This document shows, piece after piece, positions 44,291 through 64,000 of a stretch of 64,000 nt of DNA. Position numbers and translations under genes: made by a program. How positions within the stretch are numbered: the stretch's first letter is position 1; the number at the start of each line of letters is the position of its first letter. The notes below the pieces were generated by a model. The model did no database searches. It was given only the letters and a program-made list of their open reading frames with translations, and was not told the DNA's origin. The stretch spans positions 16,665,043 through 16,729,042 of the forward strand of contig CM068839.1 in the NCBI GenBank assembly GCA_028554795.2. Reading direction: 5' to 3'. This stretch comes from Sinohyriopsis cumingii (Eukaryota; Mollusca; Bivalvia; Unionida; Unionidae).

Positions 44291-45265
44291 ACTGTTTTAT
44301 GCACGCACCGCGTGCTATTTAATTAATCCTGGGGGAAGGAAGGAGAGCCCAGACTTTAATGTGTTCACATAACACTTATTAATTGAGCCTTCATGTTTGT
44401 ATGACTATTTAGAGTCCTTATCAACCTGACTGAATGGCTATTACATGAGAGGGAATAGAACCACACACACTCATGTTATCAAGAGATTTAGTTGCGAATG
44501 AACGCACCAGGTGTCAAACCAAGCAGTATGTAACGTCCGCTACGATTGGTCGGCAGCGATTATGTCACATTAGAACACCTCGTTTTGTGACGGGTGGAAA
44601 TAGTCGCACATTCCGTCACTGGTAGGATGTCCGAGCTAGGTAAAGGAGGAAAAAGTGCTCGGCAAGCCAGCCATGGACGTTGTGTACTTCCCAAAACGGC
44701 AGCCCGTACTTATTTCAAACCGAGTCCAGTTATATAATGGACAAAGCAATACAAATAATATGTTAGCCACCTGTGCAATTAAATCAGATCCATCAAGTCT
44801 GAAATTTTCCTACTTCCTATCAAATCTATCTAATTCTAGTACATAGCGTACATACAATAGCCCTAAATTTTCGTATCTAGCTAATATGTCTAAGCGACAT
44901 TTAAAAGTTTGATCACTGTTAGGACGTAAAACTTTTTTAAGTTTGTTGTGGTAGTCCAATGGATCAAGTTGGTTGTGATATAGTTCTATCAAGGAGGGAT
45001 ACCAAGCCAATTTGGTTCCCTAAGAAGAGGCAATTTGGAGCCCTAAAAAGGGCTTTTATGTCGGCAGTCGGAAGGTATTACAGCGGTTTTCGTATTCCCA
45101 AGTTTGCTCGCCGTATGGCGCTCCTCGTATGACTCTTCAGGGAATTCCTCGTACCCATACGTTCCTGCTAGTAGGCCTGCCGTATTCACAAGGACAGTGA
45201 GCGGAAAATTCTTGGTAAACCTTAGGATAGTGACAAGAGAGTTTGAGTTGAGCAAACAACTATTG
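44291..45265. other. Left part of the Maverick-type element, genes unclear
   Basis: Less AT-rich than the host flank. No gene is supported. It contains a 36-codon plus-strand frame at 44627-44737, minus-strand open stretches (45010-44810 and 45255-45043) without recognised family, and at 45039-45054 a variant hairpin (minus strand AGCCCTTTTTAGGGCT). I could not find the terminal inverted repeat or a target duplication, so the exact border with the host is unknown. Confidence 0.4.
45039..45054 (-). terminator. Variant histone-type stem-loop
   Basis: Minus strand AGCCCT-TTTT-AGGGCT: the same stem as the three loops at 46.2-47.8 kb but with the fourth loop base changed from C to T. No clear purine-rich downstream element follows. 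Its relation to the ORF ending at 45266 is uncertain. Confidence 0.4.
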
Positions 45266-45947: not shown

Positions 45948-45959
45948 CACTGTTAGTAG

Positions 45960-46137
45960 TGAATAGGGATACTTTACGGACAATGGGAATTAGCATTAAA
46001 AACACCCCTGGGACACTTTACGGACAATGGAAATTTAACATGGCGAAAAATCGTGGGATACTTTACGGACAAGGGGAATTAACATGGCTAAAAAATCGTG
46101 GGACACTCTACGGACAAGGAGAATTTAACATGGGATT
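45960..46137. repeat. Four-copy ~42-bp repeat, CTTTACGGACAATGG
   Basis: GGGACACTTTACGGACAATG - GGAATTTAACATGGC - AAAAATCGT recurs four times with few changes. It lies between the stem-loop at 46199 and the ORF starting at 45947. It could be a promoter, an enhancer or a binding array of the element. Confidence 0.8.
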
Positions 46138-46198
46138 TTTTTTTTAAAAAAAAAGGGGTAGGCAATAGAAAGGCTATCTCTTTTCGAGAAATATGGCT

Positions 46199-46214
46199 GG
46201 CCCTGAAAAGGGCC
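46199..46214 (-). terminator. Histone-type 3' stem-loop (cassette 1)
   Basis: Minus strand GGCCCT-TTTC-AGGGCC: a perfect 6-bp stem with the canonical TTTC loop, 19 nt after the stop of the gene at 46234-46614. A purine-rich CGAAAAGAGAT (minus strand, 46176-46186) follows 12 nt later, where a histone downstream element that pairs with U7 snRNA would lie. Confidence 0.8.
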
Positions 46215-46233
46215 TTTGGGTTTTCTTCTTCTT

Positions 46234-46614
46234 CTAATTTCTTCTTTTCCTCCACCAACTTCTTATTTTATCTCCAACACTCTTTCTCTTCTTTTTTTTC
46301 TCCTTCTCTTCTTTCTTCTCTTCCTCCTCTTCTTCTTTCTTCCTCTTCTCATTTTCCTCTTCTTTTTCAATTTTTTCGTTCCATGTTCTTATTCTTATCT
46401 TTTCCTCTTCATCCTCCTTCTCCTCCTTGATCTCTTTCATGACACCACTAATCTTGTCCTTTGCTTTCCTTAAATTGTTAATTTCCATCTTTACACGATG
46501 GGGACTATAGGAATAATGGTCTTCAACGAGTCTTATTAGCATCTGTTCCATTATTCCTAAGTTGTCTAAAACGTCTTGCAAGGTTTGTAATTTGTCCATT
46601 TGGTTTGACGCCAT
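46234..46614 (-). CDS. Cassette coiled-coil protein 1 (Lys/Glu-rich)
   Basis: 126 residues from ATG at 46614. The N-terminal ~55 residues form a heptad-type coiled coil (MDKLQTLQDVLDNL, LIRLVEDH); the C-terminal half is an extreme Glu/Lys alternation (EEEEEEKKEEKEKKKKRK) ending in a basic RSWWRKRRN. The N-terminus resembles those of the other two cassette proteins (KL..L....VNL pattern). Function unknown. It does not look like a histone fold. Upstream: TATA-like CGTATAAGAA about 50 nt before ATG and the shared TTTTCCTTCACGT(A/C)CGCGC element. Downstream: histone-type stem-loop. Confidence 0.65.
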   Translation of the reverse strand: MASNQMDKLQTLQDVLDNLGIMEQMLIRLVEDHYSYSPHRVKMEINNLRKAKDKISGVMKEIKEEKEDEEEKIRIRTWNEKIEKEEENEKRKKEEEEEEKKEEKEKKKKRKSVGDKIRSWWRKRRN

Positions 46615-46672
46615 CTTCTTTTTATTCTTTGCAGAATGGTTTGAACGACGAATACTGTGGGTTCTTATACGA

Positions 46673-46770
46673 AAAGCGCGTACGTGAAGGAAAACATCCC
46701 CTAAAACATAAAATTGATCTTACCTAGATGATGACCAAACATCGCGCGGACGTGAAGGAAAACATCCCCC
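46673..46770 (-). promoter_or_regulatory. Cassette 1 promoter, doubled element
   Basis: Two copies of the shared element (minus strand TTTTCCTTCACGTACGCGC at 46676-46696 and TTTTCCTTCACGTCCGCGC at 46744-46764), separated by a conserved block with CTAGGTAAGATCAATTTTAT. A TATA-like box (TATAAGAA) lies just downstream at 46662-46669. Confidence 0.6.
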
Positions 46771-46999
46771 TACTTTTTCATTTCATATAATATAACCCCA
46801 ACTATACTCTCCACATACGCTAAGAAACAATTAATAAACCCATAATCTACTATTCACACAAACATACCTTAGCTCTTATAAACACTAACACACCAACACA
46901 TACCCTCACACATTAAAAAAGAGTTAGTGTTTATATTCACACTACTCTACCTACACACATTGGCAAATCGATCGTTATTTCTTTTCTAGAGTATTGGGT

Positions 47000-47015
47000 A
47001 GCCCTGAAAAGGGCT
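47000..47015 (-). terminator. Histone-type 3' stem-loop (cassette 2)
   Basis: Minus strand AGCCCT-TTTC-AGGGCT followed directly by ACCCA, the usual sequence at histone cleavage sites. It lies 29 nt after the stop at 47045. A purine-rich AGAAAAGAAA (46978-46987) follows 12 nt downstream. Confidence 0.85.
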
Positions 47016-47044
47016 GTTTTGTTTGGAACTTCATGGACACCTGG

Positions 47045-47368
47045 TTAATGGTGGCACCTTCCAGGCCTGGCGCCACATACACATCTTATCCCCCAGTTAC
47101 TTTTTACCTTTTGGGGGAAGAGAGCAGAGGCAGGATATGTCGCTTCAGAATCCCAATTTTCGCTCTCTGGGATTCCGAAATTTTTTCTTCTCTCCTTTTC
47201 CTCCTCCTCTTCTTTATATCTTCTCTCCTCCTCTTCTTTTTTTCTTCTTTCCTCCTCTCTTATCCTTCCCTCCTCGACAATGGCTTCAGCGGCCAGTTCA
47301 TTTAATATGCGCCTGGCATATTCCAGATGCACATGAAGTTCCAACAGTTTCTCCAGTCTCGTGTTCAT
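47045..47368 (-). CDS. Cassette coiled-coil protein 2
   Basis: 107 residues from ATG at 47368; the longer frame has no ATG. This start sits 63 nt from the shared promoter element, the same spacing as in cassette 3. N-terminal coiled coil (MNTRLEKLLELHVHLEYARR, NELAAEA), then an Arg/Glu/Lys-rich helix (EEERRKKEEEERRYKEEEE), then a ~40-residue non-helical tail with Cys residues. Unknown function; paralogous to cassettes 1 and 3 by position, flanking DNA and N-terminal pattern. Confidence 0.65.
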   Translation of the reverse strand: MNTRLEKLLELHVHLEYARRILNELAAEAIVEEGRIREEERRKKEEEERRYKEEEEEKERRKNFGIPESENWDSEATYPASALFPQKVKSNWGIRCVCGARPGRCHH

Positions 47369-47421
47369 TTTTTGGTGTTGATCAATCAACAAGGGTAGCT
47401 GGACTGCCGAACGAGTTTCAA

Positions 47422-47460
47422 TTTATACTGAAAGCGCGGACGTGAAGGAAAACATCCCCC
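47422..47460 (-). promoter_or_regulatory. Cassette 2 promoter
   Basis: Minus strand TTTTCCTTCACGTCCGCGC followed by TTTCAGTATAAATT, a good TATA box about 55 nt before the ATG at 47368. A weaker second copy (CGCGCGGACCTAAAAG on plus) lies at about 47504. Confidence 0.65.
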
Positions 47461-47803
47461 TAAAAACATAAAATTCATCTTACCTAGATCATGACCCAGA
47501 ACAACGCGCGGACCTAAAAGAAACACTCACTCACTTTTTTATGCTACCCATCACTATTTTAAATTTTTTTATAAATCACTTCAATAGACTATCCACATAA
47601 GCAAAGCAATCCAATCTAACCCCAAATATACACCTCAAACACCAAAAAAAACATGATTTTAATCTACTATCCGTACCAACTTACGTGAGCACTTACTAAC
47701 ACATACACTCTCACTATCAATAAAGAGTTAGTGTTTATTTTCACACTACTCTACCTACACACATTGGCAAATTAATAGTTATTTCTTTTCTAGAGTATTG
47801 GTT

Positions 47804-47819
47804 AGCCCTGAAAAGGGCT
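47804..47819 (-). terminator. Histone-type 3' stem-loop (cassette 3)
   Basis: Minus strand AGCCCT-TTTC-AGGGCT followed by AACCA, 29 nt after the stop at 47849. AGAAAAGAAA (47782-47791) follows 12 nt downstream, identical to cassette 2. Confidence 0.85.
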
Positions 47820-47848: not shown

Positions 47849-48208
47849 TTAGTTTCTAAGAATGCGATGTCCTCTGAGGATAGACTTTCTGGCGATAGGT
47901 CTGCTTCTTCGGAAAGAGAAGAAGAATTCTTTGGTGTCGATACGACAATCGACAAAGCCTCTGTCAGCTTCAGGTTGCTGCTGCTGCTGCTGTTGTTGCT
48001 GCTGTTGCTGCTGTCTCTGAAGTCTGTACTTCTCTGTCCATTCTTCTTTCTCCCTGTTCATTTCTTCTCTGAAGAGCTCTTCTATCAGGTCTTCAGTGAT
48101 TTTTAACATTCTCACATTCTCTATTTCTTCTGGTTTCGGTATCAGACTGTGTCTGACCCTATGCAGATTCACGTAGGCTTCGTTGAGCTTAGCTAGTTTG
48201 GAGCACAT
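47849..48208 (-). CDS. Cassette coiled-coil protein 3 (poly-Gln)
   Basis: 119 residues from ATG at 48208; the upstream extension has no ATG. N-terminus MCSKLAKLNEAYVNLHRVRH parallels the other cassette proteins. It is followed by a helix (MLKITEDLIEELFREEMNRE), a run of 13 glutamines encoded by mixed CAG/CAA, and a basic tail (FRRSRPIARK). Unknown function. Spacing to the promoter element (63 nt) and to the stem-loop (29 nt) equals that of cassette 2. Confidence 0.65.
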   Translation of the reverse strand: MCSKLAKLNEAYVNLHRVRHSLIPKPEEIENVRMLKITEDLIEELFREEMNREKEEWTEKYRLQRQQQQQQQQQQQQQPEADRGFVDCRIDTKEFFFSFRRSRPIARKSILRGHRILRN

Positions 48209-48261: not shown

Positions 48262-48299
48262 CTTAAAGTTAAAGCGCGGACGTGAAGGAAAACATCCCC
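48262..48299 (-). promoter_or_regulatory. Cassette 3 promoter
   Basis: Minus strand GGGGATGTTTTCCTTCACG - TCCGCGCTTT, then a TATA-like TTTAAGAA about 54 nt before the ATG at 48208. Same order and spacing as cassettes 1 and 2. Confidence 0.6.
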
Positions 48300-48415
48300 A
48301 CATGGTTTTCGAGCCGCAACGTTCATGAGAGGGATAGTAAGAAATGAAAGAGCATCAATCCAACATTCTTCTAGCTAAACAAAAGACAAAGGCATTTTTT
48401 CTAAACACAACATTT

Positions 48416-48421
48416 TTTATT
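48416..48421 (-). terminator. Candidate poly(A) signal after the protease gene
   Basis: AATAAA on the minus strand 107 nt after the protease stop codon. If used, the late genes end by ordinary polyadenylation, unlike the three cassettes. Confidence 0.45.
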
Positions 48422-48527
48422 CAAAAATCACTTAACACTAAACAACAACATTTTTAACAATAATCCAACACTATAACATCAAACAATTTTTTTTCAAATC
48501 ACAAACATTTTTTTCTTCAAATACAAT

Positions 48528-49088
48528 CTACTTCAAACAAGGCTGACAACGTTGTGAATGAAATTGTGATTTCCACTGTTGGAAATCATTAGGCCATTGA
48601 TGGACACTACGTTTCCTAGCTTGAGACAAAAGATAAGCATAATGGTCACAAAACCATCGATCTACTTTCACATCGTTTCTAGCAGAAGAACGAGGATCGA
48701 AATGAGTCACTAAATGTTCTAAGGAATAGCCCAGGCTGCGATGATGCAGAAAATACACACAGTACTGTCCACACACCAAGGAATCTGTGCCTTGTAATTT
48801 CACGTTATTGAATCGGGTGGTTTGAGCATTTCTTCTCATAAAGTCAATGATATCGTCTTCCAAAGGGGGCAATCCGTACGAATCGAAATATTCCACACAT
48901 CCTTCTTGAGGAAAGTAGACGGCTACCCAGTGGGTTCCTGGGAGATGACTCTCGTCCGTGTTGATCACGTAAGCTTGATGGTCTTTAGGTTTGCGATGAG
49001 GGAGTTCATCTTTAGCACAGACGACAGGATTCCAAGAAGCTGTATACGAACTGTGGTTCAAAAGGTAATAAAGTTCCCAGGTATCCAT
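48528..49088 (-). CDS. Adenain-like cysteine protease (maturation protease)
   Basis: 186 residues, typical of adenovirus-type C5 proteases. Visible active-site pattern: His53 in GTHWVAVYF, Asp69 in EYFDSYG, Gln99 (oxyanion hole) and Cys106 in SLVCGQYC; the Gln-x6-Cys spacing equals that of adenain. It should process capsid precursor proteins inside assembling particles. It lies directly after the Cys/His-motif protein gene. The frame is intact with all catalytic residues. ATG at 49088. Confidence 0.9.
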   Translation of the reverse strand: MDTWELYYLLNHSSYTASWNPVVCAKDELPHRKPKDHQAYVINTDESHLPGTHWVAVYFPQEGCVEYFDSYGLPPLEDDIIDFMRRNAQTTRFNNVKLQGTDSLVCGQYCVYFLHHRSLGYSLEHLVTHFDPRSSARNDVKVDRWFCDHYAYLLSQARKRSVHQWPNDFQQWKSQFHSQRCQPCLK

Positions 49089-49118
49089 TGTTTTCTGTGT
49101 TGTTTTTTTTCTTCTTCT

Positions 49119-49622
49119 TCACAGGTAATAATAAGTCGTCAATTCGATCCTGACTTTTTGCTTGAAAATGTCTGACGAATAAACGGTTATTCGTTCTGTT
49201 TCCTCACTCTGATTCAGGAGAGCTTCGATACGATGGATCTCTTGAGTGGTTAATGGTGGACAAGAATGTTCACGCAAGTCTTTATACCACTGGTGCAACA
49301 CGTCTTTGTTTGAGATGAGACTCCAAGCTTCGTCCAGATACTCGTCCAATTTTTCTTCTTGACTCAACATCAGGCATTTATCGTGTTGAATTTGACTGGG
49401 ATGATCGTTTTGACATCCATAGCAATTTTTCTTGATCAATTCCGTCATTTTGTCGACCAAGTGTTTGGCAAAACAGGAGACTAAATGGGCTTCTTGTTCT
49501 GGCCATCTCGACTTCATCATGACAATTTCTTCGTCTTTGTCTTGGGATTCTCCTTCCATGGTCTCCTCACATTCCATGTCCAAAGTTTCTTCACTAGGTA
49601 AAGAGGGATAACAGTCTTCCAT
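49119..49622 (-). CDS. Conserved Cys/His-motif protein of Maverick/adintovirus elements
   Basis: 167 residues. An acidic N-terminal part (about 1-35) is followed by helices and a compact motif NCYGCQNDHPSQIQHDKC around residues 66-83. This is a plausible zinc site of a kind I associate with a small protein found between the capsid and protease genes of these elements. Function unknown. It starts 5 nt after the major capsid protein stop. Confidence 0.6.
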   Translation of the reverse strand: MEDCYPSLPSEETLDMECEETMEGESQDKDEEIVMMKSRWPEQEAHLVSCFAKHLVDKMTELIKKNCYGCQNDHPSQIQHDKCLMLSQEEKLDEYLDEAWSLISNKDVLHQWYKDLREHSCPPLTTQEIHRIEALLNQSEETERITVYSSDIFKQKVRIELTTYYYL

Positions 49623-49627
49623 GGCTT

Positions 49628-50953
49628 CTAGTAATCTAGAATGACTTCTCTCAAACTGTTGATTTCTATGGTATTATCGAATTCTGCATACAGGATGACG
49701 TTCAACGTTGGATTATCATCAGCACCGAGGTCTTTGATTGCAAACTGAAGTTCCACACGAATCTGGCCGGATTTTATAGGGTGGAAATGTCCCTCGTCGC
49801 TGCCTTGGTCTGGAGTGAAATCGAAAGCCCACAAAGCGTAGCCTCCTGCATAATCTTCGTACGTAATGCCGTGACTGGTGTTGGTTCCTAACTGTCCGGT
49901 GGCTTCGTACAGGGACAAGTACGACCTCAAGTAATTCTTCTTTTTAAAGTCAGGTTCGAAAGGTCTGGTACACAAGGTTTTGCCATCTCGACTGACTTCG
50001 ATCTTGGACACGTCAAAGTGTTTAAAGTAGAAAGGATTTTTTTTGATAGCTCCGTTGAAGGCTTCATTCTCGACGATACCAATGATTAAACGTTTGGGTA
50101 GCTGTCCTTGGAACAAATGATCTTCGATCATGGATCGCTGTCCCTTGGGAATGGTGAACGTTTTCACTTCCACGCGTCGTATGGGATACTTGGCGGTTGT
50201 TCTGCTCAACGTCTGACTGATGTCGTTTCCCACTTTAGGTAGCACTTCCACACGTCGCACGTAGAGTCTGGCTTCTTGGATTTTGGTTTTGTACTCGTCA
50301 TCATTAGCCAATAAATGGAAAGCGGTACTGCTCCGATTCAGTCTCAGGCGAACATTCACCCCGTTCAGCAAATATTTCTCTTGCAACCACATGTCCAAAT
50401 GTAAACGATCCATCAGTTCTAAACTCTTTCCATCTTTGATTCTGTCTCTTCGTTCTACAAATCCGTCATTGTTTGGTGTTTTGGTTGCATCAGTTTCGAA
50501 TGTTTCAAACTGGCCTGCTTCGTCAGCTTCCCATACCACACAGGCATTGAGATGAGTGTTCTTGGCGTCTATTCCGTACGTCAAGAGATTTTCCAGGTAG
50601 GCCCGATAAGGGTAAGTATCCATGCTGCTACTGACCAGTTTGTTGTTCAAGTACAAGTCCACTCCACTGAACAAGGAATGCATGAAATTGTTGACGGGAG
50701 CTACTGCTTCAGTGTCTATATCACCTCCTGTCTTATCTACAACTTTGACTTTCAGGTACAAGTAACTGCTATTCAGATCGATGTAATCTTCGGGCTGTCC
50801 TTTGATTTCAAACTCGATGGGAGCGGAATCGGTCAATGAGGAGACGGGGTGAAATTCCACCCACTGAGATTCTTGCATGGTCATCATGGTGGGGGGCATG
50901 GCAAACAGATCCAGTTCCGTCTTGGAACAAGCGCAAGACTCTCGGTGCATCAT
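49628..50953 (-). CDS. Major capsid protein (double jelly-roll, hexon-like)
   Basis: First ATG at 50953; an upstream extension would need a TTG codon. About 441 residues. The N-terminus (SCACSKTELDLFAMPPT) and the following QWVEFHPVSSLTDSAPIEFE match the Maverick/adintovirus capsid protein, which in databases is often found as an uncharacterised F54H12.2-like protein. Further conserved pieces: IDLNSSYLYLKVKV, MHSLFSGVDLYLNN, YPYRAYLENLLTYG. The family forms icosahedral shells by double jelly-roll trimers. Frame intact. It follows the pVI-like gene by 17 nt. Confidence 0.9.
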   Translation of the reverse strand: MMHRESCACSKTELDLFAMPPTMMTMQESQWVEFHPVSSLTDSAPIEFEIKGQPEDYIDLNSSYLYLKVKVVDKTGGDIDTEAVAPVNNFMHSLFSGVDLYLNNKLVSSSMDTYPYRAYLENLLTYGIDAKNTHLNACVVWEADEAGQFETFETDATKTPNNDGFVERRDRIKDGKSLELMDRLHLDMWLQEKYLLNGVNVRLRLNRSSTAFHLLANDDEYKTKIQEARLYVRRVEVLPKVGNDISQTLSRTTAKYPIRRVEVKTFTIPKGQRSMIEDHLFQGQLPKRLIIGIVENEAFNGAIKKNPFYFKHFDVSKIEVSRDGKTLCTRPFEPDFKKKNYLRSYLSLYEATGQLGTNTSHGITYEDYAGGYALWAFDFTPDQGSDEGHFHPIKSGQIRVELQFAIKDLGADDNPTLNVILYAEFDNTIEINSLREVILDY

Positions 50954-50970
50954 TTTTTTTGTTCTGTGTC

Positions 50971-51390
50971 TCAATAATCGAAAACGTCTAAGTCTCGAAC
51001 GGTTCTTCTTTTCTTGGCCTTTCTCGCTTGAAGTCTGGTGAAAGGGTGTTTTCTTCTTCGTCGTCTCTTTTTGCCTTGTCCTTGCTGAATGCTTGACTCG
51101 GTAGCGTGCAGGGCATTTATAGGTGTGTCTCGTCGGCCTAAAATGTCTTTGCCCGTTTGCAGCAAGACATTTTTGCCTGCCCTCATGAAGGCTTCTTTAG
51201 GGTTTTGTTTGTCGATGATGACATTTTGGAGAAATTCTTTGCCTTGCGTCAGTGCCGCATCTTTCAAGGCGTGCAATCCGCGTGTCACCATCGGTTTCAA
51301 CACTGGGGCCACCGAACGAAAGGCCGATTTTAACATGTCTCCTAAACCGTGTCCTCGCTGTCGTGCAACCCCTTGGTACACTGGATACAT
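50971..51390 (-). CDS. pVI-like minor capsid protein
   Basis: 139 residues. The N-terminus (VYQGVARQRGHGLGDML) is a short leader followed by an amphipathic segment (MLKSAFRSVAPVLKPM). GHGLG resembles the adenain cleavage site type (small residues, Gly at P1/P1'). The C-terminus is strongly basic (KKRRRRRKHPFTRLQARKAK, KKRR). Adenovirus pVI has this design: an amphipathic membrane-lytic helix released by the protease plus a basic part. It lies between the penton-like and major capsid genes, as expected. Frame intact. Confidence 0.7.
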   Translation of the reverse strand: MYPVYQGVARQRGHGLGDMLKSAFRSVAPVLKPMVTRGLHALKDAALTQGKEFLQNVIIDKQNPKEAFMRAGKNVLLQTGKDILGRRDTPINALHATESSIQQGQGKKRRRRRKHPFTRLQARKAKKRRTVRDLDVFDY

Positions 51391-51397
51391 GACTTAC

Positions 51398-52315
51398 TTA
51401 CGAATCGTGAGAGAACCGTTTTCGAAAATGGAGTTTCACCGTGACTTTTCCTTTGGTGAATGGAATATTTTGTCCCAAATCTCCTTTTATAGCAATGTTG
51501 ACCGTGTCCAAATACGACTTGCTGACAGGCAAATAATGAGGATGCACAAATTCCCTGTGGACGTGATAGGTGTTTCCACCTTCCTGGTCACTGGTTGCGG
51601 TACTATCCACTTTGAAAGGAATGACACGCAGTAACGGTACGGAGGTGTGTCCCACCACGTTGTACTCCACCACATCGGAATACACGAACATCAAATTCAG
51701 TCCTTGGTTCAGTTCTACCGGTTTTCCAAAAGCTCTGTAAAAATCCATATTATTGTTGATCTTGGGGCTCATATTTTGTGCGAGCATTGTTGGATGTCCA
51801 CCCAAAATTTCAAACAAACTACCATTGAACCTGAAGGACAACAGTTGAGTATCCTGAAATTTCATCAGTAAGCGACGAGCCACTTTATGGTACTCCAGGG
51901 TGACACTTTTTTTGATTCTGTTCAGGGCTTTGCCAAAGGCGAACTCGAACCTGTCCGCAATGGTGTCCACCAAATGTTGGCCACTAAAATAAAACCCTGC
52001 TGGAATTTTCACGGTGTAGATTTTGAAGGGTGGATTGCTGGCTTGTTTTGTGTCCCCTGAAAACCCGATGTCATTCATGACTTCTTGTAATTGTTGGTTC
52101 AGGATTTCGACCTCAAAAGTGTTTTGCTTTTCGGTGATGTTTTGGATTTGTGTAGGGTGAATCATTTCTACTAAAGCCACTTCCCAATGGGCTTCGTGAT
52201 CTAAGGGGATGGCTTGAGGTAATTTGGCCGTGTAACAGCACAACGTGTTGTTGGGAAACACCTCCATGGAACTGTCACTGGGTAAGGTTAAGTAAAATTG
52301 GTTTTGGTGACTCAT
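51398..52315 (-). CDS. Penton-like minor capsid protein
   Basis: 305 residues. Opens FYLTLPSDSSMEVFPNNT, then YTAKLPQAIPLDHEAHWEVA, LVEMIHP. This is the conserved start of the second structural protein of Maverick/adintovirus elements, predicted to be a single jelly-roll vertex protein. Its ATG (52313-52315) overlaps the stop of the membrane-protein gene by 4 nt. Frame intact. Confidence 0.8.
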   Translation of the reverse strand: MSHQNQFYLTLPSDSSMEVFPNNTLCCYTAKLPQAIPLDHEAHWEVALVEMIHPTQIQNITEKQNTFEVEILNQQLQEVMNDIGFSGDTKQASNPPFKIYTVKIPAGFYFSGQHLVDTIADRFEFAFGKALNRIKKSVTLEYHKVARRLLMKFQDTQLLSFRFNGSLFEILGGHPTMLAQNMSPKINNNMDFYRAFGKPVELNQGLNLMFVYSDVVEYNVVGHTSVPLLRVIPFKVDSTATSDQEGGNTYHVHREFVHPHYLPVSKSYLDTVNIAIKGDLGQNIPFTKGKVTVKLHFRKRFSHDS

Positions 52316-52722
52316 AATTCCAGAGTTCTGTGGCTGTCCGAGGGGTTAGTGGATGTCAGAGGCGTGTCTCCGCCCAAAATGGGGTTCTGGTTGTGGTTGT
52401 TGGAGTGGTGACTGGCACTGGCACTAGACACAACGTTCCCGTTCGAGGAGAATTTCAGGGAGGGATTAGGAAGCAGGTAACCGATGCAACTGCTCAATAA
52501 AATGGTCCACAATTGTTTGTCTCCTTGTTGCAAACTCAAATTGGCAATGGCTGCCCCGATGACACAATACACCACGAAGATTTGGCAGAAAAAGACGATT
52601 TGCGTTTTAGGCACACGTTCTCCACACCACACCCACAAGGGTTGTTTTTGTAAATCTTGCACAGAAGAACTAGGGGAAGAAGGAGTGGTCGACGTAGCTG
52701 CGTCTGATGTGTGAAAGGGCAT
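52312..52722 (-). CDS. Two-helix membrane protein
   Basis: 136 residues from ATG at 52722; starting further upstream would need GTG. Two hydrophobic segments, about residues 42-63 (IVFFCQIFVVYCVIGAAI) and 72-88 (WTILLSSCIGYLLPNP), then a Ser/Asn-rich tail. The LSS.IGYLLPNPSL piece recurs in small proteins of these elements near the penton gene. Possibly a virion membrane or host-interaction protein. It begins 5 nt after the integrase stop and overlaps the penton start by 4 nt. Confidence 0.65.
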   Translation of the reverse strand: MPFHTSDAATSTTPSSPSSSVQDLQKQPLWVWCGERVPKTQIVFFCQIFVVYCVIGAAIANLSLQQGDKQLWTILLSSCIGYLLPNPSLKFSSNGNVVSSASASHHSNNHNQNPILGGDTPLTSTNPSDSHRTLEL

Positions 52723-52727
52723 GATGG

Positions 52728-53840
52728 TCACTTCTTCTTTTTATAGTCGATGACTTGCGAAGCGTCGATCCAAGAATCGAAACTGGGTGGATATCCTTTC
52801 CAACGTACTTTGACTTCTTTGACACGTCGTTTGCCCACTTTACGGGTTCTGCATTCGAGAATGCTTTCGATGTCGTACACGTCGTCTTCTTTTTTGGTGA
52901 CACGTTGTAACTCGGGCAAATAAAACGTTCCTTTGAGTACTTCTCCGTTCATGTCTTCCAATTTATAGACGGCAGGATGACGGCCATGCACTCGTCCAGT
53001 GACGCGAAACAATTCGGTCGTCCAGTTAGGTAAGTAACCTTTGTCGAAAGTGCGTTTGGTTTTGCCAATGCGCACCCAATCTCCTACGGTCAACTCTCCA
53101 CTTTTCTTGAGGACAGCCCTCGTCGGGGACGTACCGAACAGGCGCTCGAACACCAGCACTTCGTTGTCGGGAGTCACGTCTTGCGGGGCACGTCCGATGC
53201 TTCGATGGTAAGATTGGTTGTACGCTTGCACCAGGTGTGGTAAGATGTCGATGTACTTCAGAGTGTGGTGATGCGTAAAATATTTCCACATGCGTTCTTT
53301 CAAAGTGCGTTGAAAACGTTCCACGATGCTGGCTTTGGTTTCGGGATTCTCGGTGGGAAAAAAATGAATGTCACGTTTCTTTAATTCTTTTTGGAAAGCT
53401 TGGTTCAGAAATTCGGTGCCTTTGTCCGTTTGCCATCGAAGAGGGCGACGACCGCTTTGTTTCAACACCCGTTGCAGGGCTCGCACTAACTCGCTGCTCG
53501 ATTTGGAAGTCAAGGGCACGACCCAGGCAAATTTGGAAAAGACGTCGATGACACAAAACAAATATTTGTAACCACGATTGTAGCTGGCCAAATGAGAGAC
53601 ATCGGCTAAATCGGCTTGCCATTGATGATCGATGCCTTCCACTCGGGTGCGACTTCTGGCAAACTTGCGTCGAATGGGTTTGTGCAAAGTGTAGGTAGCT
53701 TGTTCTTGTAACCATCGTTGCACTTGAGGTAAACGGAGACTTTTCAGTCGCGTTTTGGCAGCACGATACAATTTTTGAACTCCTGCGTAACCTGCAGGAT
53801 GCGAGGGATCGTAGTAAATGCTGGCTAAGACTTTTTCCAT
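52728..53840 (-). CDS. Retroviral-type integrase with chromodomain
   Basis: 370 residues. The N-terminal region (IYYDPSHPAGYAGVQKLYRA) is typical of Maverick integrases. The catalytic core has D77 (QADLAD), D139 (QTDKGTEF) and E174 (SIVERF), with 34 residues between the last two, close to the retroviral D,D-35-E. The C-terminal 45 residues (about 321-366: DIESILE, VRWKGYPPSFDSW) form a chromodomain with the aromatic positions present. Family role: insertion of the linear element into host DNA, making short target duplications. Frame intact. Confidence 0.92.
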   Translation of the reverse strand: MEKVLASIYYDPSHPAGYAGVQKLYRAAKTRLKSLRLPQVQRWLQEQATYTLHKPIRRKFARSRTRVEGIDHQWQADLADVSHLASYNRGYKYLFCVIDVFSKFAWVVPLTSKSSSELVRALQRVLKQSGRRPLRWQTDKGTEFLNQAFQKELKKRDIHFFPTENPETKASIVERFQRTLKERMWKYFTHHHTLKYIDILPHLVQAYNQSYHRSIGRAPQDVTPDNEVLVFERLFGTSPTRAVLKKSGELTVGDWVRIGKTKRTFDKGYLPNWTTELFRVTGRVHGRHPAVYKLEDMNGEVLKGTFYLPELQRVTKKEDDVYDIESILECRTRKVGKRRVKEVKVRWKGYPPSFDSWIDASQVIDYKKKK

Positions 53841-53856
53841 TTTTTGTGTTGGTGTG

Positions 53857-54570
53857 TTAATAAGTCACCCACTCTTCGGTGATGCTACTTTGGGTGGGTC
53901 GAAAGGGTGGTTTGGAAACGGATTTACGTGTCCGATGGGCTACGGGAGTAGAAGTCGAAGGTAGTGGTGGTGGTGGTGGTGGAGGTGGCAATGGAATGGC
54001 TTTGGTTTTCTTTTCTTTTTTCACTTCTGGTTTCCCTTCTTTCTTTTTCACTTCTGTCGAAGGAGGCGTGGACATCATCTTTTTAACCCAAGCTTTCATT
54101 TCTTCTCGTTGGGGTGTGGGGGACGGGGTCAACAAGGATCCTGCAATCTTACTCGAAATGGGAGCTGCTGACGGTGTTTGAAACACTTCGCGCATCTCTT
54201 CTTCCTCAGGTCTTTGTGGGGTAGCATCTCTGGTAACCCTTGGGGATGGTAGTGGTGGTGGTGGTGGTGGTGGTAATGATGGTGCTGGACTTTTCATCAA
54301 GGTCTTAAAATCTTTTAGAGTGGGTAAAGCTGTTTCGTCTAAAGCTTTCTGGTGAAAGAGTTGCAGTCTTTGCAAGAGTTGACCGTACTTTTGCGATTTT
54401 TCTGTTTCGGACAAATCTTGGCGATCCATCAAGGATTGCAATTCGTGTTGTAACTGGGACATCTCGCTCAAATTGGGATTGGGAGGTAAATGCGGGGTGC
54501 GTTGTTCTTGCCACCGATGGTATTCCATCCATCGTTTGTAAGGCACTAAAGCTAGTTTTCGTCCTTCCAT
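53857..54570 (-). CDS. Proline-rich late protein, Maverick/adintovirus family
   Basis: 237 residues from ATG at 54570, 46 nt downstream of a TATA-type box. It starts LALVPYKRWMEYHRW, a conserved beginning (LVPY.R..) in a family of late proteins of these elements, followed by a coiled coil (about 30-75), two poly-proline tracts of 7 and 8 and a Lys-rich stretch. Likely low-complexity structural or scaffold protein. It precedes the integrase by 16 nt. Function not known. Confidence 0.6.
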   Translation of the reverse strand: MEGRKLALVPYKRWMEYHRWQEQRTPHLPPNPNLSEMSQLQHELQSLMDRQDLSETEKSQKYGQLLQRLQLFHQKALDETALPTLKDFKTLMKSPAPSLPPPPPPPLPSPRVTRDATPQRPEEEEMREVFQTPSAAPISSKIAGSLLTPSPTPQREEMKAWVKKMMSTPPSTEVKKKEGKPEVKKEKKTKAIPLPPPPPPPPLPSTSTPVAHRTRKSVSKPPFRPTQSSITEEWVTY

Positions 54571-54615
54571 GGGGTTGTCAGGGGTGAATTCTGAGATCTT
54601 GGGACTTCCGAAGGC

Positions 54616-54624
54616 CTTTTTATC
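54616..54624 (-). promoter_or_regulatory. TATA box of the proline-rich protein gene
   Basis: Minus strand GATAAAAAG, overlapping the end of the preceding gene, with ATG (54570) about 46 nt downstream. Confidence 0.5.
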
Positions 54625-55006
54625 TTGCTCCCATCAGTCCTCCCAACATGGTTCCCAAGACTCCTTTTAGTATGGGGCCTAACAAGAGAGGTAAAATGCC
54701 TCCACGTTGGACCAACATCTTCTTTTTTTGACGAATGGGAATTTTCTTTTGAACCATTTTCCGAAGAACGTGACGATGTTTGCCTAAGCATTGTTTCTGG
54801 TGTTTGGACAAAGGGATCGTGCCTTTCAAGACGTTCAAACAACATTCGCACACGGTATCGATGACCTCTTTGGAGGCCGTTTGAATGAGTTTTTTTCGTA
54901 GGGGTGGAGAAGCTTTGGACAGGACAGATAACATGTCCCCATGTTTGGCTAAACGTGGTGGCAGTCCTTTCCTTTTCTTTCCTTGGGGTTTTCTGGAGGG
55001 TGACAT
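54620..55006 (-). CDS. Basic core/minor capsid protein with QRGG motif
   Basis: 128 residues from ATG at 55006; upstream extension begins with GTG and lies at the probable transcription start. Basic throughout. The second half reads HRHVLRKMVQKKIPIRQKKK, then LVQRGGILPLLLGPILKG and a Gly-rich hydrophobic end (GTMLGGLMGAR). The HxxxLRxL..+.I..+.K+.LVQ+GG..P.LL pattern is common in Maverick/adintovirus proteins and reminiscent of adenovirus mu/pX or a membrane-active peptide. It shares its pattern with the upstream SPKK protein (see findings). Confidence 0.65.
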   Translation of the reverse strand: MSPSRKPQGKKRKGLPPRLAKHGDMLSVLSKASPPLRKKLIQTASKEVIDTVCECCLNVLKGTIPLSKHQKQCLGKHRHVLRKMVQKKIPIRQKKKMLVQRGGILPLLLGPILKGVLGTMLGGLMGAR

Positions 55007-55060
55007 CTTTGAGTCTTCAGGAGCACCAAAAAACACTGATATCCTACTCGGTCACAGGCC

Positions 55061-55069
55061 TTTTTTATA
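55061..55069 (-). promoter_or_regulatory. TATA box of the QRGG protein gene
   Basis: Minus strand GTATAAAAAAG, 55-60 nt before the ATG at 55006. It decides the start: the nearer in-frame non-ATG codon at 55036 would lie at the transcription start itself. Confidence 0.55.
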
Positions 55070-56012
55070 CTGGAACGCGTCGCCATTGATTGTCTTTACG
55101 TCGTATCAGTTTGAGGACAGGCATGACACGTCGTGCAGGGGTACGTAACGGACTAAATCGAGCCAGTTCTTGCTTGGACAAATCCAGTAAACTTTGTAAC
55201 ATGCCCGATCTTTCATGGACTTTGATTTTGGGAGAAGGTACTTTGTGAGCAGCAGCCACTGCCGCTAAATGGGAAGGTCCTGCCACTGGGGAAGTTCTTT
55301 TGGGGGTCATCAACGGAGAAGTTCTTGGTGTAATCAACGTCTCCAAGTACTCTTCAGTTCCTGGTGACATCAACGGAGAAGTGGACAAACGTGAGGCTGC
55401 CGGAGACGCTGTGGCAGGTCGTGGTTTGCGAGTGTAAGGCTGCGTCCTGGCCGAAGTGCCTCTCTTGCGACTAGTTTTCTTCTGTGGACTTTTCTTTTTC
55501 TGAGGACTTTTTCTCTGTTTCTTTTTCTGGGGGCTTCTTTTCTTTTTCCGGGGTGATGGTGGTGGTGTCTGGTAAGAGGAGGGTCCCGCCACTGGAGAAG
55601 TTCTTCTCTTTGGGGACCTGGTCTTTTTCTTCTTGAGGCTTCGTTGAACTTTTGTCTTAGGGATAACTTTGGGGGCATTAGGATCCCATCTTAAGAGTGA
55701 GCGAATGATGACCCCTCCTAGAGTACCGCTCCCTCCAGGTTTCAAAATAATTTGTTTTTTGGTTTGAGTGTCGATGCGGGGATCGGCCAGTTGGACCAAA
55801 GCGACTTTGTTTCGATCGAAAAAGCGTTGGGTTTGATGAGGAATCTGAATGATTCCTTGGAGTATTTGACGTGCCGTCACCGTGAACCATCGTAAGACTT
55901 CTTTGAGACTAGCTTCTAAGACACGAGCTCGTGTTTGTGGATCTTTTTCTCGACTGATGCCATACAAGGCACGAATCAATTTGACGGGAAGATGCGACTG
56001 AAGGGACGTCAT
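55065..56012 (-). CDS. Lysine-rich SPKK-type core protein
   Basis: 315 residues from ATG at 56012, chosen because a TATA box lies 40-46 nt upstream; the frame is open further 5' but without promoter support. The first ~110 residues (LPVKLIRALYGIS, EVLRWFTVTARQILQ, IILKPGGSGTLGG) resemble the QRGG protein. The rest is highly basic with many SPxKK/SPQKKK repeats like linker histone or protamine tails, and several repeats of TSPLM(T/S)P and TSPVAGPS. Most likely condenses the viral genome in the particle. Confidence 0.65.
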   Translation of the reverse strand: MTSLQSHLPVKLIRALYGISREKDPQTRARVLEASLKEVLRWFTVTARQILQGIIQIPHQTQRFFDRNKVALVQLADPRIDTQTKKQIILKPGGSGTLGGVIIRSLLRWDPNAPKVIPKTKVQRSLKKKKTRSPKRRTSPVAGPSSYQTPPPSPRKKKRSPQKKKQRKSPQKKKSPQKKTSRKRGTSARTQPYTRKPRPATASPAASRLSTSPLMSPGTEEYLETLITPRTSPLMTPKRTSPVAGPSHLAAVAAAHKVPSPKIKVHERSGMLQSLLDLSKQELARFSPLRTPARRVMPVLKLIRRKDNQWRRVPV

Positions 56013-56050
56013 GTTCGCACTGTGTGAGACAGACGAAAAAGGGTCTGAGG

Positions 56051-56059
56051 TTTTTATAG
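56051..56059 (-). promoter_or_regulatory. TATA box of the SPKK core protein gene
   Basis: Minus strand CTATAAAAA, about 40 nt before the ATG at 56012 and overlapping the 3' flank of the ATPase gene. Confidence 0.55.
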
Positions 56060-56065
56060 ATTTTT

Positions 56066-56809
56066 TCATGGGGAGTGAAATGAAGTCGAGGACGGAGACG
56101 TGTACAGGACAGGCCCTCCGTCTTGGCACCAGTGGTGAAACAAGTGGGTACGAAATCGCAAATCCTCGGGAGTGGTAGGTTTCAAATCGACGAGTAAATA
56201 GGCGTGTGGCGTTTGAGTGGCATCGTCGTACGCCTGAGTCAGCCAAGGCGTTCCTAACTGTTTGGCTAAGACTTGCACTTGCGATTTATCTCGAGGGCTT
56301 TTAAACAAGACCACGTAATGCGCATTGAGACTGATGGTACGATGGGCTTTACTTTGTTGAAACAAATTTTGGGTGATGTAAACGACACTGGCATTACGGT
56401 GATGCCCTTTGCGCGTAAACCACAATTTAATTTCTTCTTCGTCTTCTCCTAACATGTCGTCGAAAATGACCAAATGGGTTTGACGGGAGTCAGAGACGAT
56501 ACCGTCGTCTTCTTTAGGAATGCCTTCCACAAACACGATGGAATCGCCTTGACTTTCTCGCAAGAGGCTGTACGCCGATTGCCACTCTTTGTAACACCAC
56601 ACGATCCGTTGAGGTGGTCGATCGATCAAATGATGTTTATGTTCGATCAAACGTTTGACGAATTCGGTTTTGCCTGAACCGCTAGGTCCAGCAATGAGCA
56701 TGTTAAAGGGATGGCGAAGATACAAAGCCTCCCAACTGGCACGATCTAAGTGTTCGTCGATGACTTTGACAGTAGAGGAAGAGGGAGCAGAGACAGCAGA
56801 GGTAGCCAT
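56066..56809 (-). CDS. DNA-packaging ATPase (FtsK/A32-like)
   Basis: 247 residues from ATG at 56809. Walker A GPSGSGKT at 41-48, Walker B THLVIFDD ending at residue 118, and the downstream sensor VVYITQNLF at 142-150; then HYVVLFKSPRDK, typical of Maverick packaging ATPases. Role: pumping the genome into preformed capsids. An in-frame extension to 56854 is rejected because a TATA box at 56858-56865 would then lie 4 nt before the start. Frame intact. Confidence 0.9.
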   Translation of the reverse strand: MATSAVSAPSSSTVKVIDEHLDRASWEALYLRHPFNMLIAGPSGSGKTEFVKRLIEHKHHLIDRPPQRIVWCYKEWQSAYSLLRESQGDSIVFVEGIPKEDDGIVSDSRQTHLVIFDDMLGEDEEEIKLWFTRKGHHRNASVVYITQNLFQQSKAHRTISLNAHYVVLFKSPRDKSQVQVLAKQLGTPWLTQAYDDATQTPHAYLLVDLKPTTPEDLRFRTHLFHHWCQDGGPVLYTSPSSTSFHSP

Positions 56810-56857
56810 GGTATGAGAAATGTCACTTGTGACACGAAAAAACAAACAAGACAAGAG

Positions 56858-56865
56858 TTTATATA
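56858..56865 (-). promoter_or_regulatory. TATA box of the ATPase gene
   Basis: Minus strand TATATAAA, 49 nt before ATG at 56809. It defines the ATPase start. Confidence 0.6.
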
Positions 56866-56880
56866 CTTTTTCAGAACACG

Positions 56881-56886
56881 TTTATT
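56881..56886 (-). terminator. Candidate poly(A) signal after the small-ORF group
   Basis: Minus strand AATAAA, 8 nt after the stop of the membrane-anchor ORF (56894) and just upstream of the ATPase TATA box, so it would separate two transcription units. Confidence 0.5.
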
Positions 56887-56893
56887 GAATGTT

Positions 56894-57115
56894 TCAAATA
56901 TGAACACGAAAGACAAAAATGCATACAACCCAAATAGTGATGTACAGGAATATAAAACACATCAAAACAATCAAAGTGGAATATAAACAAGTGTCTGTAC
57001 AACATGTTTTGGGTAACGAAGATGTCCTAGGGACAGTGTGTAATGTTCTTACAGTCTCTACATGAGGTATTGTCACACAAGTGTCCTCCCGGAATGACCT
57101 TTCAGGAATGTCCAT
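56894..57115 (-). CDS. Small tail-anchored membrane protein ORF
   Basis: 73 residues from ATG at 57115 (alternative ATG at 57223 in the same frame). The last ~25 residues are one strong hydrophobic helix (STLIVLMCFIFLYITIWV and following) ending in RVHI, a C-terminal membrane anchor. The ATG overlaps the stop of the ORF at 57102 by 14 nt in another frame. No family recognised. Confidence 0.45.
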   Translation of the reverse strand: MDIPERSFREDTCVTIPHVETVRTLHTVPRTSSLPKTCCTDTCLYSTLIVLMCFIFLYITIWVVCIFVFRVHI

Positions 57116-57443
57116 GACAGTCCTGTCCTGAAGCGAGTGGTTGTTCTCGGTGACGGGTTCTTCTGGCACCGTCACTAACACAGGTTGAAAAGTAACTTTT
57201 TTCCTTGAACAACTCTTGTGCATACTGGGCCACTTCTTGGGTCCAAGCCTCAAAACCCCCCTTTTTCCAGTCACGAACATCTGTCCAATGAGGGTGTAAG
57301 TCACAAGCTACACACACATCGTCATACACGTCTTGGGTAGCTAAAAGTTGACGAATCTTTTTTTCCTGTTGAGGTCGAGAAGTATCCAGATGAAACCGCA
57401 AGGCTTTGAGCAAAAGGAGTTTTTCGTGACCATTTAAGGCCAT
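57102..57443 (-). CDS. Unknown small ORF with DWKKGGFEAW motif
   Basis: 113 residues from ATG at 57443, which overlaps the previous ORF's stop by 10 nt. Helical (MALNGHEKLLLLKALRFHL), with HWTDVRDWKKGGFEAWTQ around residues 52-69, faintly like the BH2 signature of Bcl-2 proteins. It sits between a small ORF containing NLGRQVV and a membrane-anchor ORF. Identity not established. Confidence 0.4.
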   Translation of the reverse strand: MALNGHEKLLLLKALRFHLDTSRPQQEKKIRQLLATQDVYDDVCVACDLHPHWTDVRDWKKGGFEAWTQEVAQYAQELFKEKSYFSTCVSDGARRTRHREQPLASGQDCHGHS

Positions 57444-57658
57444 GGAGGTGGTAAGTACTGATCGTAAAGAGTCCACAAAGAATCGGCTGGTAAACGAAAT
57501 CCCAGAAAACAAGTCACTAAGACACACACCACTTGTCGTCCCAAATTAAATGGATACAATTCTTGTAATAATTGATGGTAATGATCCACGGTTTGAATAT
57601 GGTCATTGAGTTCCTTCCATGGAATCTGTTGGATGACATGTGACATAAACCGTGGCAT
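57434..57658 (-). CDS. Unknown 74-residue ORF
   Basis: ATG at 57658 inside the 3' end of the preceding LPxEL gene (56-nt overlap). Helical, with FNLGRQVVCVLVTCFLGF around residues 37-54, faintly like a Bcl-2 BH1 region. Ends PPPWP. No firm family. Confidence 0.35.
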   Translation of the reverse strand: MPRFMSHVIQQIPWKELNDHIQTVDHYHQLLQELYPFNLGRQVVCVLVTCFLGFRLPADSLWTLYDQYLPPPWP

Positions 57659-58121
57659 GGCAGCCTGTTTTTATATTCTCTTTTTTTTGGATGCAATACA
57701 CGTACTTTCTAGCCAGAGATCTTCGTTCTCCAGTAGGGAATCTAAATCTTGCATACTGTAACCGAAACGTCAGAGTTCGTTTAGGTGTTTCCTCTTCCGC
57801 TAAGCAGATTCCACGTAAAATATGTTTGTAATCCTTTAACTTGTCTTCCTCAATGCGTTGCACTAGGTGAATCTCGAAGTAACCATAATCATGAACATGT
57901 CGATCATTAGCGACCTCAAAGTTTTGAACAATGTCTAACCATTGAAAGAATTTCTGACGAATCAGTTCTCTTATACCCTTCAGGTACCAGTGGTTAAAGA
58001 TCTGGTGACGTATCGGATGCAATTGTTCTTTACGTTTCACTTGTATTTTGACCAGCTCTCGGTAAATGCGTTCTCTCAACTCCACAGGCAAAGCACGAAT
58101 GTTCTCTTGTAAAGTATCCAT
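57603..58121 (-). CDS. LPxEL (F-box-like) protein, copy 2
   Basis: 172 residues. The first ~40 residues (MDTLQENIRALPVELRERIY) are nearly identical to copy 1; LPxELRERIYREL resembles the start of an F-box helix pair. The rest shares HWYLK.I..LI and scattered positions. It may recruit host ubiquitin ligase machinery, but this is a weak inference. ATG at 58121, 12 nt after copy 1. Confidence 0.6.
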   Translation of the reverse strand: MDTLQENIRALPVELRERIYRELVKIQVKRKEQLHPIRHQIFNHWYLKGIRELIRQKFFQWLDIVQNFEVANDRHVHDYGYFEIHLVQRIEEDKLKDYKHILRGICLAEEETPKRTLTFRLQYARFRFPTGERRSLARKYVYCIQKKENIKTGCHATVYVTCHPTDSMEGTQ

Positions 58122-58133
58122 GAATAGGTCATA

Positions 58134-58589
58134 CTAAATCCTCTTTGGTCTGACACAAGAAATGTACTCTTTGCACAAACATGGTTTTAATTCATTGTCG
58201 AATCTAAATCGTTTCACCACTAATCTACACATTACAATTCGTTCAGAAGTTTCCTCTTTCACCAAGTTGACATTGCGTGAAAGATGTTGGTAATTCGTTA
58301 ACTCTTCCTCTGGAATTCGATGTAGTACGTTTACAATGTAGTAGATAGAATCGTCCATACCAAACCATTCCTTTTTATAACCAGGAGGTCGTTGATCAAT
58401 GTCTGTCCAATGGAACACTTTCAACTCAATCAATCCTTGTATAGCCTTCAGGTACCAGTGGTTCAAACACCGGTGACGTAACGGATGCAATTGTTCTTTA
58501 CGTTTCACTTGTATTTTGACCAGTTCTCGATAAATGCGTTCTCTCAACTCCACAGGCAAAGCACGAATGTTCTCTTGTAAAGTATCCAT
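58134..58589 (-). CDS. LPxEL (F-box-like) protein, copy 1
   Basis: 151 residues from ATG at 58589. Tandem paralogue of the next gene: identical first ~37 residues apart from one or two positions, conserved NHWYLKAI, then diverged. DNA identity in the 5' part (about 58470-58589 versus 58002-58121) is much higher than in the 3' part, suggesting gene conversion or a duplicated N-terminal module. Confidence 0.6.
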   Translation of the reverse strand: MDTLQENIRALPVELRERIYRELVKIQVKRKEQLHPLRHRCLNHWYLKAIQGLIELKVFHWTDIDQRPPGYKKEWFGMDDSIYYIVNVLHRIPEEELTNYQHLSRNVNLVKEETSERIVMCRLVVKRFRFDNELKPCLCKEYISCVRPKRI

Positions 58590-58617
58590 GAACAAATTAT
58601 TATGGTAAGAAGTTACT

Positions 58618-59355: not shown

Positions 59356-59410
59356 CTTGTTCGCTCGGTCTTGGTAGTCACAATGAACTATCGATCTTGA
59401 CCATAGCCCC

Positions 59411-59420
59411 CTTTTTATAC
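59411..59420 (-). promoter_or_regulatory. TATA box of the Cys-rich BIR gene
   Basis: Minus strand GTATAAAAAG; it overlaps the last codons of the upstream BIR gene. Confidence 0.55.
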
Positions 59421-59873: not shown

Positions 59874-59896
59874 CTTTCTGGTGAGTGGCTATCCTC

Positions 59897-61891: not shown

Positions 61892-61933
61892 TTCTTCCTG
61901 AAAGTCGAAAGGGTCCGAGGCGTGAGCCTGGTA

Positions 61934-63931: not shown

Positions 63932-63978
63932 CTTGAAAGCAAAAAGTCAAATGACTCAAGTTCAAACACCATGAGCTA

Positions 63979-63986: not shown

Positions 63987-64000
63987 TCATAGCAGACCAG

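Follow-up and report, generated by a model that had tools for sequence, protein, structure and literature searches.

Three short genes on the minus strand, which we call A, B, and B', raise the question of whether genes of a mobile element can be run as if they were the histone genes of its host. They lie near the left end of a Maverick-type element in the genome of the bivalve Sinohyriopsis cumingii, within a stretch of 64,000 nucleotides (contig CM068839.1 of assembly GCA_028554795.2, positions 16,665,043 to 16,729,042 of the forward strand), hereafter the window. The element is 20,183 bp long and extends from window coordinate 45955 to 66137; its right end lies past the window and is covered by locus L037, where position 2237 equals window coordinate 66137. 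A first-pass annotation of the window had proposed that the element uses the histone 3'-end pathway. PMC6303110 describes replication-dependent histone mRNAs as unique among metazoan mRNAs in having a terminal stem-loop in place of a poly(A) tail. The proposal is supported by matches to RF00032 (the Rfam model of the histone stem-loop), likeness to the host histone genes, presence of the motif in 11 of 12 element copies, and a promoter motif, and we regard it as highly probable that the host's replication-dependent histone programme expresses the occupants of five gene slots, A (or A2), B, B', C, and D, as genes of the histone class.

The hairpins stand where the first-pass annotation had placed them: on the minus strand, GGCCCTTTTCAGGGCC occupies 46199-46214, and AGCCCTTTTCAGGGCT, in which the first pair is A-U for G-C, occupies both 47000-47015 and 47804-47819. 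They start at the 20th, 30th, and 30th base past the stop codons of the open reading frames (ORFs) 46234-46614 (A), 47045-47368 (B), and 47849-48208 (B'), in agreement with the distances given earlier. The stems are followed by AGCCA (A), ACCCA (B), and AACCA (B'), and AAAAG starts 14 nt past each stem, in the downstream elements GAAAAGAGAT of gene A (46176-46185) and GAAAAGAAAT of genes B (46977-46986) and B' (47781-47790, read from the sequence). All three hairpins match RF00032 (A, 35.6 bits at 46174-46219; B, 31.0 bits, E 2e-5; B', 26.6 bits, E 9e-4), A over and B and B' below the Rfam gathering score of 34, and each 3' flank, when folded, gives the predicted hairpin (z -2.75 to -3.00).

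The loose hairpin consensus by itself is weak evidence: with up to one mismatch, RGYYYTHHTHARRRCY occurs 14 times in the window (five of them exact) against 7.15 expected, and 2 of 100 shuffles reach 14. The fully paired pattern NGYYYTHHTHARRRCN, with all six pairs, is found four times in the window against once in the mirror, and 103 times against once in 303,669 bases of window and fetched loci, a count in which overlaps were not removed and most loci had been fetched for their RF00032 matches. The weight of the evidence rests on the placement of the hairpins after three stop codons, on the flanks, and on the downstream element. Since the B and B' hairpins both sit in a 112-nt repeat of 93% identity, they are copies with one origin and do not count separately; the flanks of the A hairpin are different, and its first pair is G-C instead of A-U. 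A palindrome at 45039-45054 (16.9 bits with RF00032) lies outside the element, is without the flanks, and was rejected as a member of the set.

The obvious standard of comparison is the histone genes of this host. A PF00125 search located tandem repeats of histone genes, each about 8.3 kb long, and one unit (L058) was read. All five genes in it end in RF00032 hairpins (H3, 35.9 bits; H4, 37.7; H2B, 38.2; H2A, 39.4; H1, 35.0) with the same downstream element and spacing as in the mobile element: the stems are GGCCC..GGGCC (GGTCC..GGACC in H1), and the purine element AAAAGA (AAAAGG in H2A) stands 14 nt past the stem in H3, H4, and H2B and 15 nt past it in H2A and H1. The H2B 16-mer GGCCCTTTTCAGGGCC is identical to the stem-loop of the element genes A, C, and D, and CTCTAGAAAAGA of H2B is also the context in B and B', preceding the downstream element in B. 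Because this 16-mer and CTCTAGAAAAGA are common to both, the signals of the element match the processing signals of this particular host, beyond the textbook consensus. With metazoan replication-dependent histone genes at large the element genes share the 6-bp stem, the 4-nt loop, adenines before and an ACC-type flank after the stem, the purine-rich element 14-15 nt past the stem, and a short 3' untranslated region.

Further support comes from the 5' side of the genes, where A, B, and B' carry a promoter motif of host H2B and H1, and B also one of host H4, unreported by the first-pass annotation. On the minus strand upstream of genes B (47434-47456) and B' (48274-48296), 22 of 23 bases equal those of host H2B; the motif lies 88 nt before the ATG in both, with TATAAA (B) or TTTAAG (B') at -59. 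Gene A has two copies in the same orientation, a distal one (46744-46766, 22 of 23 bases equal to H2B, 152 nt before the ATG) and a proximal one, GATGTTTTCCTTCACGTACGCGC (46676-46698, two differences from H2B, 84 nt before the ATG, TATAAG at -55). In letters, GATGTTTTCCTTCACGTCCGCGC is found at -88 in B and B' and at -152 in A, and the -84 copy of A has one further change. A second motif of gene B, TTTCTTTTAGGTCCGCGCG (47505-47523, minus strand), is part of a 21-nt block that is identical to host H4. In the host itself, H2B has GATGTTTTCCATCACGTCCGCGC at -107 and TATAAA at -55, H1 has GATGTTTTCAATCACGTCCGCGC at -105 and TATATG at -77, H4 has TTTCTTTTAGGTCCGCGCGTT at -80 and TATAAT at -54, and H2A has a related block in reversed orientation; the distances of the motif to the ATG and to TATA in A, B, and B' resemble these. 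The best ungapped scores of A, B, and B' against the host histone promoters are 20.5-21.5, compared with a maximum of 15.5 over 500 dinucleotide-preserving shuffle sets and with scores of at most 12 for seven other upstream regions of the element, among which the PolB and zinc-knuckle regions are short (69 and 165 nt). For H3, whose start codon was not located, about 600 nt entered the region comparison and 250 nt the shuffle comparison. Other copies of the element carry the H2B 23-mer identical letter for letter. Within the host unit, H1, H2B, and H4 have a common GTCCGCGC core, which was not seen upstream of H3 and is a candidate histone promoter element of the host.

To see the family as a whole, the host assembly (2.90 Gb, 1138 contigs) was scanned. 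At least 75 scored RF00032 matches, all 75 over the gathering score, are distributed over many contigs. This set is incomplete, the 35.6-bit match of the window and the 35.0-39.4-bit matches of the histone array being absent from it, and therefore gives no proportion of element to histone hairpins. The 46 matches that were read with their flanks (30 with 1.5 kb, 16 in larger loci) adjoin element genes, and no histone ORF is listed beside any of these 46. The adjoining genes are A (MASNQ...KIRSWWRNRRN), A2 (...EKIRGWMKKWRK; 182-204 amino acids where complete), B, B', C (mostly 76-78 amino acids, with an Arg-rich tail), and D (about 183-196 amino acids where complete). In a first set of 58 distinct hairpins, ACCCA comes next in 47 and AAAAGA stands exactly 14 nt past the stem in 53; four of the 58, including the palindrome at 45039, have no gene-family assignment. 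In three of the 16 larger loci (L045, L046, and L047), the match itself was missed by the stricter pattern, which caught other hairpins of the element.

As these loci had been selected for the hairpin, we added a sample selected independently of it. The host genome contains at least 95 copies of the capsid gene at 92-100% identity, 88 of the 95 without an internal stop, the mark of a recent and large expansion of the family in this genome. Twelve of the 95 copies, spread down the ranking, were taken with 2.9 kb behind each and searched for hairpins with up to three mismatches from two 16-mers and a TTTT core. Hairpins were found in 11 of the 12 copies, so absence of the motif behind homologous genes in all related elements, which the first-pass annotation had named as a refutation, is excluded within the host genome. 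These 11 copies contain 31 hairpins, of which 29 have an ORF of at least 40 codons ending no more than 120 nt before them. AAAAG is present behind all 31, at 14 nt from the stem in 27, 15 nt in 3, and 13 nt in 1. Promoter motifs occur in 11 of the 12 copies as well, all in the sense orientation.

The same sample bears on a first alternative, namely that the hairpin belongs to the terminal inverted repeats and works there at the DNA or RNA level, as a replication origin or in protein priming or end resolution, and merely resembles the histone signal. It is true that the A and C genes point outwards and that their hairpins mark the inner limit of the repeats: the left arm (45955-46219, about 265 nt, with internal repeats of about 45 nt) contains the A hairpin at its inner end, the right arm, which ends at L037:2237, contains that of gene C, and the two arms differ in four columns of the outer 266 of their alignment. 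The hairpins of B, B', and D, however, are internal and stand behind other genes, those of B and B' start with another base pair, and all 31 hairpins of the capsid-chosen sample are in the sense orientation, with none antisense. A terminal feature would also not account for a downstream element held at about 14 nt, nor for the same layout in the host histone genes, and we consider this alternative very unlikely.

Equally improbable, in our estimation, is that the genes were captured long ago together with pieces of host histone genes and that the signals are now unused relics. The homology between element and host promoters is confined to blocks of 20-26 nt, and an old capture of a histone gene followed by exchange of the coding part would yield just this anatomy. 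Against disuse stands the conservation of the 3' signals, measured as mean pairwise identity in an ungapped register. For B (17 sequences) and D (28 sequences), the stem-loop reaches 0.96 in both and the downstream element 0.95 and 0.90, compared with 0.70 and 0.74 for the spacer and 0.47 and 0.48 for the ten bases ahead of the near flank; admission of up to three mismatches favours the stem-loop figure and not that of the downstream element. For B' (five sequences), the downstream element has 0.76 and the spacer 0.63. In addition, pairing is complete in 30 of the 31 hairpins from the capsid-chosen copies, which the search admitted with no more than three mismatches. Since the copies are young, the power of conservation to argue against a relic is limited. 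Of 119 contexts, 10 (AGTACTTTTCAGGGTT) are not hairpins of this class; without them, 109 contexts remain, and those in which both sides of the first pair are altered fall from 37 to 27.

Hairpins are also used at mRNA 3' ends by Maverick-related viruses such as giant viruses and virophages, and the hairpins here do follow closely behind stop codons, yet a generic hairpin-directed 3' end of this kind, made without the histone machinery of the host, is the least credible of the alternatives, given that loop, downstream element, and spacing agree with the histone genes of this host, that only accessory genes carry the hairpins, and that the histone promoter motif precedes A, B, and B'.

The hairpins are confined to five gene slots at the two ends of the element: A or A2, B, and B' on the left and D (L037:929-1504, minus strand) and C (L037:1724-1954, plus strand), each with a hairpin behind it, on the right, outside the window. 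No virion or replication gene has one; hairpins of the histone class number zero in window 48301-64000, and none of 20 other listed genes is followed by one within 150 nt. The hairpin genes encode small, charged proteins whose tails are basic or Arg-rich: A has 126 amino acids and the basic tail KIRSWWRKRRN, B has 107 and a tail containing Cys and Arg, and B' has 119 with a Gln run. Pfam assigns no family to A, B, or B' at E 0.001, and single examples of A2, C, and D showed no histone match there up to E 1. A and B look coiled-coil-like by eye. A (E 0.0013) and B' (E 9e-5) do have PHROG matches, which we set aside as chance similarity of coiled coils. A model of a C homologue alone reached a predicted local distance difference test score (pLDDT) of 38.7. 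In D, an acidic block is conserved at the N terminus and the stretch around PKRKRPSRAK is basic, features that would, at a guess, suit a nuclear regulator.

Two arrangements of these genes are of note in their own right. In different copies, the A slot (window 46234-46614; L041:2563-3111) is occupied by A or A2, different genes with a similar basic C-terminal stretch and the hairpin; this looks like a cassette exchange in which the 3' end is fixed. C and D are divergent and 219 bp apart (interval L037:1504-1724, about 220 bp), with TATA-like boxes on both sides of the interval and two ATTGG boxes in it, and the C/D pair is present twice, at least in part, in loci L038 and L039. The divergent layout is reminiscent of H2A-H2B pairs.

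The route by which these genes would be expressed can be outlined as follows: (i) the host factor of the H2B, H1, and H4 promoters would read the GATGTTTTCC-TCACGTCCGCGC motif (and TTTCTTTTAGGTCCGCGCG) upstream of A, B, and B', (ii) SLBP would bind the stem-loop of the pre-mRNA, (iii) the U7 small nuclear ribonucleoprotein (snRNP) would pair with the AAAAGA element 14 nt downstream, and (iv) the RNA would be cleaved between the stem-loop and the downstream element, giving a short mRNA without poly(A) that is made and kept mainly in S phase. We infer the promoter-factor, SLBP, and U7 steps because the sites match, and the cleavage and the S-phase mRNA without poly(A) because they are established for the pathway (PMC6303110, PMC5636114, and PMC10578488). 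The purpose of such an arrangement may be to have an early or regulatory gene set on hand while host DNA synthesis runs; the remaining genes of the element would form their 3' ends in another way. It is probable, if less so than the use of the histone programme as such, that an accessory regulon, divided between the two ends of the element and occupying five or more gene slots, runs as counterfeit histone genes, with the promoter motif on part of them and the stem-loop and U7-type element on all, producing poly(A)-less mRNAs in step with host replication, and that this would be the first non-histone protein-coding set on this pathway.

Several results weigh against expression by the histone programme. 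The promoter motif is missing from C and D, as it is from about 600 nt upstream of host H3. One of the 12 capsid-chosen copies (L090) starts with B' and has neither hairpin nor promoter motif, and in the element of the window the second pair of the D hairpin is broken. The A and C hairpins are located within the inverted repeats, and identity of the downstream element (0.88-0.90) only slightly exceeds that of the spacer (0.83-0.88) in A, A2, and C. The altered first pair of B and B' amounts to a single inherited change. AATAAA occurs past the hairpin in B' (110 nt after the stop) and D (99 nt after the stop), so a polyadenylated form is possible for both. A, B, and C have no poly(A) signal within 200 nt past the stop; this does not discriminate, because only 3 of 20 listed hairpin-less genes have AATAAA or ATTAAA within that distance and 17 have none. 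The processing factors of the host were not recovered either, in searches that carry little information: RF00066 gave no U7 match in the host genome, with control genomes equally silent; a U7 pattern gave 101 matches against 133 for the reversed pattern, and none of 20 loci read has a convincing U7-like 3' hairpin; and the SLBP RNA-binding domain (PF15247) gave no match at E 0.001, where the control was silent too and introns could split the domain. Finally, no convincing hairpin was found in six distant elements from other hosts, which occur as contaminant contigs in a prokaryote genome collection, all partial and with 25-44% capsid identity: five of them (L031-L034 and L036) have no RF00032 match up to E 5, and none of the six, including L035, which was searched by pattern only, has a hairpin with the right flanks by pattern.

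Outside this genome, there are capsid relatives named from Mercenaria, Crassostrea, Saccostrea, and Ostrea, and viral contigs scanned by capsid protein, capsid alignment, hairpin pattern, and D-family alignment gave nothing. Among metagenomic proteins there are 20 homologues of D (one at 97% identity, the others at 59-71%) and one of C, known here from proteins alone. Because P0131 (D) and P0141 (C) are encoded on contigs of equal length with the same sources, the C/D pair has probably been preserved in the metagenomic source. One D homologue, P0133, continues past the usual stop, and back-translation of the additional peptide fits GGGCCACCCACTTCTCTCGAAAAGAGA; we infer that this tail represents the 3' arm of the hairpin and the downstream element in another source.

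Parts and pathway have been described before; what is new, to the extent that we could check it, is that a mobile element should put them to use for a set of genes other than histone genes. Among the papers listed in the literature searched, which leaves most subscription papers outside its coverage, no report was found of histone-type 3' ends or promoters on genes of Mavericks, Polintons, adintoviruses, or transposons, in line with the first-pass annotation, which knew of none for Mavericks and adintoviruses. The element shares with Maverick/Polinton elements and adintoviruses PolB, an rve integrase with a chromodomain, an A32-type ATPase, the double-jelly-roll capsid fold, terminal inverted repeats, and a 6-bp target duplication, and differs in its histone-type signals from what we found reported of them. 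Viruses that carry histone genes exist, as do hairpin 3' ends of the mimivirus type. Both are cases of viral genes linked to histones or of hairpins at mRNA ends, whereas the hairpin genes of the present element encode nothing recognisable as a histone and have signals that match the host's own. Compared with histone genes, the element genes encode proteins without a histone match, reside in a mobile element, and have a different promoter at C and D. If our interpretation is true, it breaks the rule that only histone mRNAs end in a stem-loop, makes the S-phase histone programme portable to other coding sequences, and offers a concrete mechanism that ties part of the expression of a Maverick-type virus to host DNA replication. 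With promoter and 3' end in A, B, and B' and the 3' end alone in C and D, in many copies within one genome, the family would also be a natural test of which signals are sufficient.

The remaining features of the element are those of its class. It is flanked by a 6-bp target-site duplication, ACTGTT (left copy 45949-45954; right copy L037:2238-2243, window coordinates 66138-66143). On the minus strand follow, behind the hairpin genes, ORF 48528-49088, a putative adenain-type cysteine protease named from a motif and without a Pfam or PHROG match; the major capsid protein (49628-50953, 441 amino acids); a minor capsid protein, named by position (51398-52315); an integrase with a chromodomain (52728-53840; PF00665 and PF00385); an A32-type packaging ATPase (56066-56809; PF04665); two BIR (inhibitor-of-apoptosis) proteins recognised by Pfam (58618-59355 and 59415-59873), adjoining PolB; and PolB itself, split in this copy over two ORFs (59897-61891 and 61934-63931), both with PF03175. 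By its family, this PolB belongs to the protein-primed kind and is predicted to use protein priming. A zinc-knuckle gene (L037:166-630) lies outside the window, at the right end. The major capsid protein had no match in PDB by sequence; its model (pLDDT 83.4) is predicted to fold like double-jelly-roll capsid proteins, the best 50 Foldseek matches including capsid proteins of iridovirus, PBCV-1, Sputnik, and mavirus. Between the ATPase and the BIR genes, window 57603-58589 contains tandem related ORFs of 172 and 151 amino acids with a 201-nt repeat of 88% identity, the shorter one without a Pfam match. A second, decayed Maverick copy (L037:3611-8410) starts within 1.5 kb of the right end of the element.

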